From Halobacterium sp. DL1 (GTDB taxonomy: Archaea > Halobacteriota > Halobacteria > Halobacteriales > Halobacteriaceae), in assembly GCA_000230955.3 (NCBI GenBank), contig CP007060.1:372001-436000 (forward strand): a stretch of 64,000 bases of DNA. Reading direction: 5' to 3'. Positions 52,812-60,756 of the stretch are shown piece by piece (position 1 is the stretch's first letter; every line of letters starts with the position of its first letter). Below the pieces are notes generated by a model. That model saw only the letters and a program-made list of their open reading frames with translations. It was not told the origin of the DNA and made no database searches. The position numbers were made by a program, and so were the translations under genes.

Positions 52812-53642
52812 ATGACAGATTCCCCGTCTGAGTCCGAATTAATACGGGAGTATGAGCGACTCACGACGCGGATTACTGAAGTTCGCCAGCAACGAGAAGA
52901 GCTTGTTTGGGAACTCTCATTTGAACATAGTCAAGCACACGAACAACTCGGTAGTATCAGATTTGACTCGGTGAAACACTCTGACAGGATTCCATTCAGC
53001 CACCGGCACTCGAAGGAGAAACAATCCGCGATACGGGAGGTGATGGAAGAGATTCGTGAAGATGACGAGTATCAAGAACTTTCTGAGAAGATTACTGCTC
53101 TCCAAGCGGAGTTGGATGAACTCTGGGCTCATGCTGCCGAGGTTATAGTCAGCGATGAGTTGAATAAAAAGGAGAATATCGAGGCACTGTGGGCGGCCTT
53201 CGGAGAAGATGTGCCGAATAGTCGTGTCGCCGAGGCTGTCGATTGTCACGAACAGTATCCGGGACGGCTTGTGTTCGATCCTGAGACGGAGACGGTGGAC
53301 TACAAAGACCATGTTAAGCAACGCAAGGAGAACCAGGTCAGGACAGATCATCGGCAGAAGATTTTGGAGAGGGATGGCAACGCGTGTGTTCGGTGTGGAG
53401 TTTCAGCGAGTGATGGGGAAGCAGAACTCATAATCCATCATATTGTTCCCGTCTCTGATGATGGGTCAGCGGAACCGGAAAACTTAGCGACGCTGTGTTC
53501 AGATTGTCATAGCTCTGGTCATGATGAATACGGGTCTGGTGAGGTGTTTTACAGTACTAACACGGGATTTTGGCAGTGGGTTCGTGAGGGGGATCGCGGT
53601 TTTGATCCACATCATACGCAACAGAATCTCGACGCATTCTAA
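52812..53642 (+). CDS. HNH endonuclease with N-terminal coiled coil
   Basis: A 276-residue protein. Residues 1-110 are a coiled coil (EYERLTTRITEVRQQREELV). The C-terminal HNH domain reads ILERDGNACVRCGVSASDG, LIIHHIVPVSDDG, ENLATLCSDCHSSGH, with zinc Cys pairs and the HH-N-H catalytic pattern. Such proteins act as homing, restriction or effector nucleases. It has no coupled partner; it stands between the PD-(D/E)XK gene and the convergent exonuclease. Confidence 0.87.
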   Translation: MTDSPSESELIREYERLTTRITEVRQQREELVWELSFEHSQAHEQLGSIRFDSVKHSDRIPFSHRHSKEKQSAIREVMEEIREDDEYQELSEKITALQAELDELWAHAAEVIVSDELNKKENIEALWAAFGEDVPNSRVAEAVDCHEQYPGRLVFDPETETVDYKDHVKQRKENQVRTDHRQKILERDGNACVRCGVSASDGEAELIIHHIVPVSDDGSAEPENLATLCSDCHSSGHDEYGSGEVFYSTNTGFWQWVREGDRGFDPHHTQQNLDAF

Positions 53643-54768: not shown

Positions 54769-55830
54769 ATGACTAACTATCCCTCGGAATCCTCACTGGT
54801 GGTGAACGCCACTCAACAGCAGTTGTCGCAAAGCCCGTTCACTGCTGGCGTCGCAATCGCACCGTCTCAGCGTGAGGAGGCGGAAGGTGGCTATGATATC
54901 GCGTTCGACACTGCGAGCCGACTTGAACTCCAGTACAAGGCAGTCTACAGCGAGATCGACGACCGGACGTTCCGGCGTGGACACACTGTGAGCGCTGTGA
55001 AATTCCCCTTCGACGGGGCACAAGCGAAGACACTTCTCGGTCGGCAAACGGGCCCGGGCACTGCTTTCTATGCATTACCGGTCGTTACTGATGTCTCTGG
55101 CCTCGGTAATGTTCTCGGGACAACCGTATTTCTTGATATAGTCGGGTTGTGGAACCTGCCTAAACCCCCGAGCGATTTTGGGGAGTACACGGCGTTCTGG
55201 GTACCCGTCAACAATGGCACGCCGACATTCTCCGAAGTGTATCTCAAAGACGGTGAGGTGTCACGATACTCCAAACCCCGAGCGTATGACCGTATTGATG
55301 GGCAGTATCTCTACACCTGGTCAGAACTCAAACGGCTAACAAGCGCCACTATGACCGGAGTGCCCGTGCGTACCAGTGGTAAATCACAGGCAACGGCGGG
55401 GTATCAGGAACTGGTATCATACGAGCGTCAGCTGTTGGATTCGCGGCTCCGTGAACTGGTTCTTGACGATCAAACATCGGAAGAAGTCGACGACTGGGAA
55501 ATCATTGCTCCCGTGATTCGGGAAATCGGTCAGCGGAGTACCGAGGTTGGCGAAAGAATCGTCGGGGACAGGCCAGAACGGACCGAAGTCCCGCCAGAGG
55601 TGGGGGAACTGCTTAACGAGCATCGGTATCTGTTGGATCCGGAATTCGACATCGAGCGGCAACAGAAAGCGGTGGAAGCCGCGCTCGTCAGCTTGTCGGA
55701 CGAAGAGGAGATGGAGATTGATTACGCAGGTCTGGATCCGCGTCAGGGATCCCGGCATCGCCAGTACCGGTTCCTCACCTCGGGTGAAGAGACCGATGAG
55801 GTGCTGACAGTTCCGATTGGATTCGCATGA
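54769..55830 (+). CDS. Hypothetical protein paired with HExxH/RelE-like gene
   Basis: A 353-residue protein. The N-terminal half has alternating strands (GYDIAFDTASRLELQYKAVY, HTVSAVKFPFDGAQAKTLLG, GTAFYALPVVTDVSG, TVFLDIVGLWNLP). The LELQYK strand and later TAFYALPV recall DUF4365-type PD-(D/E)XK folds, but the match is too weak to call. The C-terminal half is helical and acidic. It precedes the peptidase gene by 78 bp on the same strand, so the two are probably co-transcribed. Confidence 0.66.
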   Translation: MTNYPSESSLVVNATQQQLSQSPFTAGVAIAPSQREEAEGGYDIAFDTASRLELQYKAVYSEIDDRTFRRGHTVSAVKFPFDGAQAKTLLGRQTGPGTAFYALPVVTDVSGLGNVLGTTVFLDIVGLWNLPKPPSDFGEYTAFWVPVNNGTPTFSEVYLKDGEVSRYSKPRAYDRIDGQYLYTWSELKRLTSATMTGVPVRTSGKSQATAGYQELVSYERQLLDSRLRELVLDDQTSEEVDDWEIIAPVIREIGQRSTEVGERIVGDRPERTEVPPEVGELLNEHRYLLDPEFDIERQQKAVEAALVSLSDEEEMEIDYAGLDPRQGSRHRQYRFLTSGEETDEVLTVPIGFA

Positions 55831-55908: not shown

Positions 55909-57240
55909 ATGTTCGCTCCTGAACAGGTACGTGCGTTTTTGCGGTGGTACGAAGGGGATGGCGAGGACCCGCCAGTCGTTCCGGACCAGCAACCACCACC
56001 GTGGCTTGTTGACAGGCATCCGTGGGTGGATCCGGAGGAGGAACCGGATGAGCGACTCGTTCCACTGTCGGAGTACGACATTAAGGAGCGGACGACGGGG
56101 GATCCTGACGGTGATGGGTACATTCCGGGTTCGCAAGCGGGTGATGAACTCGTTGATACGTGGCGCGGGACCGTGGATCAGGAGGGGTTTGATGCGATTG
56201 CCTGGTATGTTCCGTTCCACTATTCGACCGACCAGTACGGAATCTACGTGACGGAGCGCGGCGTTCAGGTCTTGGGGAATTTGTTGTTCAATTGGAGTCA
56301 CGGGCAGCAAAAGCCGATGGTCGCGGATATTACGTTCTCGACCGAAGACGGGGAGCTCCCGTTGCAGGCTGATATCCGTAATGCTGCGCCGGACTACACG
56401 TTTGCGTCGTTCGAGTCGGTGCAGGCGGCGTGTGAGTTGGCGCTGGAGATTCTGCTTCGCCACGAGTGGTATCATCACCAGACGGAGCTTTTGGCGACGT
56501 ACTTGGAGGACGTTGCTGGTGAGATGCTGTATCGAGACTATGTGGAGGAAGCGTATCGACCGGCGCGTCCCGGGAAGGATTGCTTGGAGGAATCGCTGGC
56601 GAATGCGTACGTGGCGCGTAGCCGGGCGTGTATGCGGCGAGCACCGTCAACGCCCGCATTCCATACGTTGTTCGAATATTCGACGCGGTTCCAACCGGAC
56701 GCGTACCGTGCATACGAACGGTTTACCGGACAGGACTTCCGGGTCGGTGGCCGGCATCTCGCGCATCTTCTTCACACTGCAGACGCTACTGATGCTGCAG
56801 CATCTCTCGGTGATCGGAGCCAGCAAACGCTTCTCGGTTCTCGACTACCCTTCGATACGTCGATTGATCGGGCGACGAGCACTCGCCGCATCCCAGTGTA
56901 CGTGGTTCAGCCTGCATCGCCAACACCGAACTTAGAGTATTTCAAGTATGTTGCGTTGGAGACTGACTACACCATTCGTCGGACTGATGACTTCGAAAAG
57001 AAGTACGAACGGTCGGATAACACGGTTCGAGAGCGGGTGGATCGGGCAATCGAGAAGCTTGAGACGAATGTTAATATGCCTGGGTTCAACTGGCGGAATT
57101 GCCGGACAGGGTATCAGTATGTGCGGATCAACGAGCAAATGCGGATGATCGTTGACCGCGATAACTCTATTGAGGAGGTCAAACTGGTTGACTTTGATAC
57201 TGACCACGATCTCCCTCGGGAGTACGGGTGTTATAACTGA
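55909..57240 (+). CDS. HExxH metallopeptidase-like protein with RelE-like C-terminal domain
   Basis: A 443-residue protein. Residues 185-189 are HEWYH, an HExxH zinc-peptidase motif in a helix (ALEILLRHEWYHHQTELL), and CLEESLANAYVARS at about 225-238 offers a third ligand Glu, the gluzincin arrangement. The C-terminal 100 residues (KKYERSDNTVRERVDRAIEK, then NCRTGYQYVRINEQMRMIVD) follow the RelE/ParE fold order of two helices and a beta sheet ending in KLVDFDTDHD. A peptidase fused to a toxin-like ribonuclease or gyrase-poison domain is unusual. Whether the peptidase removes a partner antitoxin, or acts in defence, is inference. Confidence 0.74.
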   Translation: MFAPEQVRAFLRWYEGDGEDPPVVPDQQPPPWLVDRHPWVDPEEEPDERLVPLSEYDIKERTTGDPDGDGYIPGSQAGDELVDTWRGTVDQEGFDAIAWYVPFHYSTDQYGIYVTERGVQVLGNLLFNWSHGQQKPMVADITFSTEDGELPLQADIRNAAPDYTFASFESVQAACELALEILLRHEWYHHQTELLATYLEDVAGEMLYRDYVEEAYRPARPGKDCLEESLANAYVARSRACMRRAPSTPAFHTLFEYSTRFQPDAYRAYERFTGQDFRVGGRHLAHLLHTADATDAAASLGDRSQQTLLGSRLPFDTSIDRATSTRRIPVYVVQPASPTPNLEYFKYVALETDYTIRRTDDFEKKYERSDNTVRERVDRAIEKLETNVNMPGFNWRNCRTGYQYVRINEQMRMIVDRDNSIEEVKLVDFDTDHDLPREYGCYN

Positions 57241-57399: not shown

Positions 57400-58200
57400 T
57401 CAGTCACGTAGAATTCCAGAAAGAGATTCAGCAATTCGGTCAACGTTGTCTTCGTCGATTACTCCGGCTACCCGTCCGGATAACATTGGGCTGTACTCTG
57501 TGACTTCTTTCTCGCCAACCCCGTACCAGAGTGGCAAGATGATATCAGTGTTATCGTTTTCGCGGGACATCAACCCCTCAAGTTCCTCTTCAGGCCACTG
57601 TTTGCCGAAATACGCCTCTGACAAGATTATTATTCCGTGGTTTGAGTTGGCCAATCCGTCATCGATCGACCGCCGTAACCGATCTCCGATTTGGAGTTCA
57701 AACTCGTCGAACCAAACATCAAATTCCCGGTCACGCAGTTCATTAGCGAGGGGCCGGGCGACTGGATCCTTGTCCTCGCCGGCGTGAGAGATAAACACAT
57801 CGTAGGAATTGTTCGCTGATTCATTGTCGACATTATCTCGACTCTCTTGGCCCTCCTCGGTCTCCTCGGTCTCTTCAGGTTCGCCGCTACCTCTTTCGTT
57901 CATTCCCGGGCAGCCACCGGACAATTCATCGTATCGCTCAAATCCAGGTATGGTAAGTTGAAATCCAGAATAGGTTCCAGACCTCTCCCTATAATAGACT
58001 AGTCCCTCATCTTTGAGCTGCTGTATTCTAGTCGCTACCGTTTGGTCACTGAGATTGAAATCATACAAGGTCAAGATATCGTGTACCTCTGATATCGGTA
58101 CAGCATCATAACCGTTACAGGCTGAAATCCAGTAGACTGCCAGCCCCACCAGATCCTGCTGAGTGTCATAATTAGATTGATCGGCGAATTCGGAGAACAT
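57400..58200 (-). CDS. Winged-helix TIR-domain protein
   Basis: A 266-residue protein from the ATG at 58200. Residues about 10-90 are a winged helix (DLVGLAVYWISACNGYDAVP, NLSDQTVATRIQQLKDEGLV), followed by an acidic linker and a TIR domain from about 133: YDVFISHAGEDK, DVWFDEFELQIGDRL, GIIILSEAYFGKQW and EEELEGL with Glu206 at the catalytic position of NAD-cleaving TIRs. TIR proteins in prokaryotic defence cleave NAD to stop infection. Winged-helix-plus-TIR is a haloarchaeal architecture; it may sense a signal through its N-terminal domain. It is divergent from the operon at 58365. Confidence 0.88.
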   Translation of the reverse strand: MFSEFADQSNYDTQQDLVGLAVYWISACNGYDAVPISEVHDILTLYDFNLSDQTVATRIQQLKDEGLVYYRERSGTYSGFQLTIPGFERYDELSGGCPGMNERGSGEPEETEETEEGQESRDNVDNESANNSYDVFISHAGEDKDPVARPLANELRDREFDVWFDEFELQIGDRLRRSIDDGLANSNHGIIILSEAYFGKQWPEEELEGLMSRENDNTDIILPLWYGVGEKEVTEYSPMLSGRVAGVIDEDNVDRIAESLSGILRD

Positions 58201-58351
58201 GTTCACAATACGTGATTGATCAGGTGCCAATATAATGAAACCACGGTTACCTAATCCCCCGTCCAGAGTGACACAACACAGTCCCTTGGCTGCGCAGCAT
58301 GTAGAAGTAGCCGGGTTAGCACGACCGAAAGGGTTAATATTTGTGTGTACG

Positions 58352-58365
58352 TATGTACGTACATA
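58352..58365. promoter_or_regulatory. Perfect 14-bp palindrome overlapping a start codon
   Basis: tatgtacgtacata is its own reverse complement and ends at the A of the ATG at 58365. Upstream lies a second gtacgta element (58348-58354) and a TATA-like ttaatatt at 58334-58341, about 24-31 bp before the ATG. A repressor bound here would block a near-leaderless transcript. The divergent TIR gene starts 165 bp to the left and may share control. Confidence 0.68.
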
Positions 58366-58805
58366 TGTCCCGGCCACAGATATCGGACGATCTCACTCAG
58401 GTCGTCGAGGAGATCCACAGGGAGGAAACCGGAACGAGACCCAGCAGTTTCGAGGAAGCATTGGAAACTGTTGTCCAGATGGCCGATCACGGCCTTGGCG
58501 AAGACGGGTGGTATCCTGGAAAATACGCTGGAAAGGCCTTCGAACGGGTCTTGGGAGGTAATAACGCTGAATCCTCCGTCCAGAACCGTGTGCAACAGCA
58601 GGGCTCTTTAGTCTCACAGGTATCGGTGGTTGATCCCGACCGGCAGGCAGTGTTCAAGCAAATCCTTGAGGACGACTACACAGTCACTATCCCTGAAGTC
58701 GAGCAGACAGCGTTAAGCTTGACGCCGGGAGAAGTACTGCAGGTCATCGCTTACCCCGCGGGGTCATCTGACAACGTTTCGGAAGAGGAAAACAGCGATG
58801 AGTAG
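58365..58805 (+). CDS. Hypothetical protein in palindrome-controlled operon
   Basis: A 146-residue protein. The N-terminal half is helical (DLTQVVEEIHREETGTRPSS, EEALETVVQMADHGLGE) and the C-terminal half is beta-rich (VSQVSVVDPDRQAVFKQILE, YTVTIPEVEQTALSLTPGEV). The last region, with TPGEVLQVIAYP, resembles a swapped-hairpin AbrB-like strand order but is not conclusive. It overlaps the next gene by 8 bp. Its promoter carries the perfect palindrome, which it could itself recognise. Confidence 0.68.
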   Translation: MSRPQISDDLTQVVEEIHREETGTRPSSFEEALETVVQMADHGLGEDGWYPGKYAGKAFERVLGGNNAESSVQNRVQQQGSLVSQVSVVDPDRQAVFKQILEDDYTVTIPEVEQTALSLTPGEVLQVIAYPAGSSDNVSEEENSDE

Positions 58806-60288: not shown

Positions 60289-60756
60289 TCACATATCGAA
60301 CTTCCGCCCGACTCGTTCCGTTGGGCGATCGTCACTCACTCGCCAGAATCCTTGTGGCCAGAATGACTCTTCGTAGTCGAGCAGCCGGTTGACTGTCTCT
60401 GGTTCCACATCGATGGAGTCGTCGTAGTCCTCCACGACGTAGATGTCGAGTGCTGGGCCGCCGTCCCAATATTCGTCGCGGACGTGTTCTGTGTGGGCCA
60501 TCGGCCCGACGCGTCCGGTCGCAGTGTATCGGCTTTCCGAGTTCCGGTAGATCAGGAGCGGGTCGCCGCGCTCCATTCGTTCGAGATTTCGACGGTTTCG
60601 CTCCCAGGAACCCTGTTCCGGATCGGTTCGGACGCCCCATACCCGGGCGCGTTCGGGAAATGAGTCGGGCCGGTTGTTCCAGTCCGACAGGTCGATTGGT
60701 TCGGCGAGTGTTCGCTGAAAGGACGGTTCGTCTACAGGTACGAGCCACAAGTTCAT
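60289..60756 (-). CDS. EVE-domain protein
   Basis: A 155-residue EVE/PUA-like domain. It begins MNLWLVPVDEPSFQRTLAEP, has RARVWGVRTDPEQGSWERNR and GDPLLIYRNSESRYTATGRV as core strands, and ends RLLDYEESFWPQGFWRVSD. EVE domains bind modified bases in DNA or RNA and are common in modification-dependent restriction. Here it stands alone and convergent with the DUF429 gene, so it may sense modified nucleic acid or RNA for one of the nearby effectors. Confidence 0.82.
   Translation of the reverse strand: MNLWLVPVDEPSFQRTLAEPIDLSDWNNRPDSFPERARVWGVRTDPEQGSWERNRRNLERMERGDPLLIYRNSESRYTATGRVGPMAHTEHVRDEYWDGGPALDIYVVEDYDDSIDVEPETVNRLLDYEESFWPQGFWRVSDDRPTERVGRKFDM

Follow-up and report, generated by a model that had tools for sequence, protein, structure and literature searches.

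An open reading frame of Halobacterium sp. DL1 that joins a HExxH-containing, peptidase-like domain to a RelE-like toxin domain raises the question of which half is the effector and what the other half does for it. The gene occupies 55909-57240 (+) of the window, by which we mean the whole stretch of 64,000 nucleotides analysed (CP007060.1 372,001-436,000, forward strand), and its ATG-initiated product of 443 amino acids lies exactly where the initial annotation placed the fusion gene. As a tentative answer, to which we give a little less than even weight, we propose a one-gene defence or stress toxin, in which a RelE effector would be gated in cis by the N-terminal HExxH domain.

Two domains in one chain

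The first 92 residues (55909-56184, + strand, as are all parts of the gene given below) are poorly predicted, with pLDDT mostly <50, and are followed by a mainly helical HExxH peptidase-like domain, residues 93-333 (56185-56907), which is delineated by family conservation and predicted structure. The two motifs that had been assigned to the N-terminal region are both found there. HEWYH (residues 185-189; 56461-56475), comprising the putative zinc ligands H185 and H189 and the putative catalytic E186, lies within a long predicted helix (171-203), and LEESLANAY (residues 226-234; 56584-56610), the second family motif, lies within a helix spanning 226-236; the window holds a single instance of the LEExLANA codon pattern, and 100 shuffles yielded none. 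By analogy with the ExxxAN motif of ImmA/IrrE, E227 or E228 likely serves as the third metal ligand. Near-invariant positions across the family are H185, E186, H189, E200, L226-E228, L230-A233, G265, Y266, L284 and P329, and HExxH is present in 21 of 22 bacterial members, the remaining one (L040) carrying HDFFH. HExxH together with LEE[AS]LANA is, at the level of sequence, the conserved signature of the family.

Zinc peptidase activity, which these motifs suggest, is putative. No match to the peptidase domain was found in the PDB, either by sequence or by fold with the models of the window protein and of its Spirochaetia relative L060, and Pfam, NCBIfam, PHROGs and PADLOC were blank for this domain in the members scanned. 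The zinc-peptidase half of the initial annotation is thus carried by motifs and family conservation, but its predicted fold matched no solved structure. A Pfam match to ‘M3’ (PF09213; E=0.0019, below the cut-off) falls outside the HExxH region, does not denote peptidase family M3 and was dismissed as chance. Membership in Peptidase_M78 (ImmA/IrrE) is unsupported, as the fusion family has no match to Pfam M78 (PF06114) and an hhalign comparison of the family profile with M78 gives a probability of 15%, in which only the motifs align; the N-terminal domain may at most act like ImmA/IrrE, without being a member.

The C-terminal domain, residues 352-441 (56962-57231), is RelE/ParE (BECR)-like according to PHROG 1213, a family profile and a fold search. 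PHROG 1213 (‘RelE-like toxin’) matches residues 354-427 of the window protein (E=0.0022), gives a weak match at the same place in a homologue with 32% identity to it (L002), and matches the bacterial relatives L060 (E=7.7e-6) and L040 (E=1.6e-7). Archaeal RelE3 (3bpq) is detected at E=1.1e-4 by a profile built from five RelE domains of the family, and Pfam returned no RelE match for the C-terminal domain of the window protein. The AlphaFold2 model of L060 (mean pLDDT 78; RelE domain mostly >80) retrieved RelE, YoeB, YafQ and HigB with Foldseek at probability 1.00, with RelE-domain TM values of 0.69 for 3bpq, 0.73 for 2khe and 0.73 for 7v5y, likewise at probability 1.00. The RelE region of the window protein model is only moderately confident, and RelE structures are still among its fold matches. 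The C-terminal assignment is therefore borne out, as are the presence of peptidase-like and toxin-like domains in one chain and the rarity of this combination, and neither half is a product of chance.

Two residues of this domain deserve mention. R412 (57142-57144) is an arginine shared by every RelE domain of the family and by the stand-alone clostridial RelE-type ORFs, and H433 (57205-57207) is a C-terminal histidine near the toxin-type histidine position, in a loop where the alignment is loose. Both are retained in the window protein, and the glutamate of the WERIKG-type motif of L060 is missing. R406, once considered as a catalytic residue, was dropped, as the stand-alone RelE-type ORFs lack it. 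These ORFs of 88-119 aa, with RelE-type sequence, were found in Clostridia with the full-family profile; two other matches of that profile (G830 and G736) are unrelated, glycosyltransferase-like sequences. In a further locus (L091, G667), a RelE-like domain opens a long ORF that runs on into helicase-like sequence. Separately, Foldseek aligned 302-326 columns of the L060 model with the insect toxin Txp40 (7xbj) at probability 0.66-0.72 and with a large rmsd; the similarity probably does not extend beyond the C-terminal fold.

Relatives in archaea, bacteria and a viral contig

Besides the genome of origin, which carries one copy, a match to the fusion protein occurs in 5 of the 391 genomes sampled from the class. 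Four of these five relatives are full-length, with 31-32% identity to the window protein, and have YRWADH or YRWVDH in place of HEWYH, LEESLANAY being lost too; the fifth is a truncated remnant, residues 9-79, adjoining an EVE-like gene. All haloarchaeal carriers found outside the genome of origin are thus either HExxH-less or remnants. The HExxH-less copies retain R412 and H433 and are under purifying selection (dN/dS 0.14-0.19 for the whole gene and 0.07-0.16 for the RelE-like part), so across the family the N-terminal domain cannot serve in catalysis only. The protease-activated toxin envisaged in the initial annotation may still hold, but not with catalysis as the only N-terminal function, given four such relatives. 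The EVE-like gene, which we named by eye, also occurs in the window (60289-60756, -) and in L011 (12636-13313), with 75-96% identity to the copy that directly adjoins the remnant (G213).

Direct protein searches of plasmid and phage records and of GTDB and IMG/VR contigs returned no relatives because single-sequence patterns were too specific, whereas a pattern built on the conserved motif succeeded. A degenerate DNA pattern for LEE[AS]LANA[YF], run over GTDB contigs, gave 51 loci, of which 21 non-redundant ones (L074 duplicates L056) have HExxH with LEEALANAY or LEEALANAF downstream; with L040 these make 22 bacterial relatives. Homology to the window protein is detected by phmmer for L060 (E=4e-16), L071 (6e-13) and L044 (4e-13), and a profile built on the RelE fusions from bacteria matches the window protein at E=8.5e-28 over residues 88-431, spanning both domains, with shuffled controls at E>1. 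A RelE domain follows the peptidase in 4 of the 22. It is in line with the peptidase in L060 and in L071 (Paraliobacillus); in L040 (Clostridium) the RelE sequence is in line and the N-terminal half lies in another frame, and in L050 (an Actinomycetes MAG) the RelE sequence lies beyond a frame break. These matches show that the fusion recurs in archaea and in three bacterial phyla, Bacillota, Spirochaetota and Actinomycetota. The members found most often lack a toxin domain altogether, and the peptidase domain therefore has a RelE-independent role.

In an IMG/VR contig (L113, 5743-6996), the same peptidase family is fused instead to HicA (PF07927; E=1.2e-7, above the cut-off), downstream of genes for a type III methyltransferase and a restriction subunit. 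A constant peptidase with interchangeable C-terminal toxin domains, RelE or HicA, is also what a polymorphic-type secreted toxin would present, the peptidase autoprocessing to free the toxin tip. The fusion protein sequence, however, contains no hydrophobic leader and no secretion module, no immunity gene adjoins the fusion gene, and relatives are located with restriction genes; we consider secretion of this kind very improbable.

Members of the HExxH peptidase-like family are rare: when Actinomycetes, Spirochaetia and the class to which L044 belongs were searched, only the source genomes came up, and in further viral scans the sole family member was the HicA fusion described above, the other matches being unrelated ORFs. 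In a tree of the family, support is 97/94 for the grouping of the window protein with the HExxH-less haloarchaeal copies and 100/99 for a single clade of the RelE-less restriction-type members, and the RelE label requires three changes. An ancestral fusion followed by later losses of RelE is possible, with long branches limiting what the tree can tell.

Gene neighbourhoods and the identity of the effector

The fusion gene sits in a variable defence-gene region of a salt-loving archaeon. It is absent from 12 of 12 sampled genomes of the same genus, and the G+C content of 0.48-0.61 over most of 24-64 kb, compared with 0.65-0.69 in the first 8 kb of the window, is consistent with a variable island. 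Reading of both flanks revealed no antitoxin-sized ORF next to the gene, the intergenic gaps of 78 bp upstream and 159 bp downstream being too short for an antitoxin gene directly adjoining it. The initial annotation had pointed to a partner gene just upstream. The gene at 54769-55830 (+) encodes 353 aa of no known family, and its near-full-length homologues in other haloarchaea (82%, 60% and 58%) have different, unrelated downstream genes, which led us to reject it as a partner. Nor did a two-gene unit emerge from the haloarchaeal carriers, which in several comparisons share only the single gene of ~1.4 kb: L007 and L008 have only ~1.4 kb in common, namely the fusion gene itself, and other pairs share 1.4-1.8 kb around the gene, with further similar pieces elsewhere in a different order. 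The haloarchaeal carriers thus have no constant neighbour.

These observations bear on a three-component toxin system like that proposed for COG2856, in which the peptidase, here joined to the toxin, would cleave an antitoxin or repressor whose gene lies elsewhere. HExxH proteins of COG2856 are frequently associated with RelE and PIN toxins (PMC2701414), and IrrE cleaves the repressor DdrO (PMC7907104). Set against this precedent are the lack of a directly adjoining HTH or antitoxin gene, a haloarchaeal shared unit without a constant neighbour, and the weak match of the family profile to M78 members, and we judge such a system quite unlikely here.

Convergent with the fusion gene lies a TIR-domain gene (57400-58377, -; PDC-S66 E=2.8e-54, ThsB E=1.1e-31), whose product also shows weak winged-helix-type matches at residues ~91-146. 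Elsewhere in the window, 52812-53642 (+) encodes a protein with a C-terminal HNH-type region and best matches to DpdF and ZorE. The fusion protein itself has no accepted match among PADLOC models, only a weak one to Cas3HD (E=0.029), and six relatives compared with the same models gave no match. Restriction, methylase or BREX genes occur in 8 of 23 family loci (L035, L044, L056, L061, L064, L067, L071 and L113), those of L071 being several kb from the family gene; a PtuA-like ATPase (Septu-like) lies nearby in L051, and L037 and L066 have weaker defence-type matches. RelE-less relatives in particular often adjoin restriction-modification, BREX or Septu-like genes. The restriction-modification queries had 0 matches in 28 chance-match loci of the same scan, a rough control, as the queries were taken from family loci. 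L056 and L067 carry type I M and S genes alongside a RelE-less HExxH peptidase. L056 has two further ORFs, an unknown of 370 aa and one of 707 aa in which a P-loop-like GRGKS motif was read by eye; neither of the two has a match in Pfam or PADLOC. These genes may together form a restriction-type system that has escaped recognition.

In restriction-type loci, the RelE-less relatives must act through the peptidase-like domain, which brings in the chief rival to a RelE effector. Under this rival, the effector role would fall to the peptidase, with the RelE or HicA fold serving only as an address label that would dock it to the ribosome, mRNA, an antitoxin or a phage protein. RNA or ribosome binding is established for the RelE and HicA families, so that both folds could serve in this way, and the loss of the WERIKG-type glutamate from the window protein fits such a role. 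For four haloarchaeal relatives without HExxH to keep their RelE part under purifying selection, however, would make little sense if the peptidase were the effector, and we regard this alternative as unlikely.

A proposed toxin gated in cis and its parallels

In the one-gene toxin that we tentatively prefer, the C-terminal RelE domain would be a ribosome-dependent mRNase that arrests translation, and the N-terminal HExxH domain a built-in control that keeps it inactive. On a signal, the RelE domain would be released, either through cleavage of the linker (residues ~334-352) or through a conformational change that depends on a metal or a substrate. Two observations lead us to take the RelE domain as the effector: among the haloarchaeal copies without HExxH it is the best-kept part, and in the viral contig its place is filled by HicA, which is also an mRNA interferase. 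The control role is assigned to the peptidase domain on the grounds that this part is constant and that no antitoxin accompanies the gene. As no separate antitoxin gene would be needed, the gene could move alone. Within this scheme we infer toxicity, zinc binding, inhibition in cis, the trigger and phage defence.

Our weighing, which leaves the proposal just short of an even call, counts in its favour the cross-domain homology, the L060 fold, the HicA swap, the lack of an antitoxin, selection and the defence neighbours. Counted against it are the missing WERIKG-type glutamate, the frame breaks in two of the four bacterial RelE fusions, the predominance of toxin-less members, the HExxH-less or remnant state of the other haloarchaeal carriers, and a defence-neighbour control whose queries came from family loci. 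The fusion proteins appear to make up a toxin family that has not been catalogued, its members self-contained and probably self-controlled. More doubtful is a broader view, in which they would constitute an undescribed one-gene immune class that archaea and bacteria employ next to restriction systems, a zinc-peptidase-like sensor gating a swappable RelE or HicA in cis and a catalytically dead haloarchaeal branch keeping the toxin part. If the proposal is true, the family would provide a toxin with an on-switch in its own chain and no antitoxin, a putative peptidase family missed by Pfam, NCBIfam, PHROGs and PADLOC in the members scanned, and possibly an added effector in haloarchaeal antiviral defence. 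The N-terminal domain is found joined to RelE, joined to HicA, or on its own near restriction or BREX genes, which poses the question of a common peptidase-like sensor for different RNA-cutting effectors.

By profile, the C-terminal domain resembles RelE/ParE (BECR) toxins such as M. jannaschii RelE3 (3bpq), YoeB and YafQ, with R412 and H433 retained and with predicted fold likeness in L060. Unlike these toxins, it is fused behind a 330-residue HExxH domain, and unlike a type II toxin-antitoxin module, the fusion gene has no adjacent antitoxin gene. ImmA/IrrE proteins (COG2856, Peptidase_M78) likewise combine HExxH with a subsequent ExxxAN-type motif and have a RelE-toxin association, but their partner domain is a repressor HTH, whereas that of the window protein is toxin-like, and the profile comparison between the two is the weak one noted above. 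COG2856 HExxH proteins were predicted to act in three-component toxin systems beside RelE and PIN (Makarova 2009, PMC2701414), and IrrE is a zinc peptidase switchable by available zinc (PMC7907104).

Multidomain HicA and RelE toxins have been surveyed (Gerdes 2024, 2025; PMC10865869, PMC11980606), and these are likewise single-gene, multidomain and linked to defence. Searching the text of both surveys brought up no peptidase or HExxH fusion. The RelE survey (PMC11980606) excluded multidomain families without a recognisable antitoxin, and a literature search of partial coverage found no peptidase-RelE fusion. In Cami1, the CARF-RelE fusion of type III CRISPR (8phb, 8phj), which appeared in our fold search, a sensor and a C-terminal RelE domain likewise share one chain. 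The CARF sensor domain of Cami1 binds cyclic nucleotides. The N-terminal domain of the window protein is instead of the HExxH type, and Cami1 is the closest mechanistic parallel to the control in cis proposed here.
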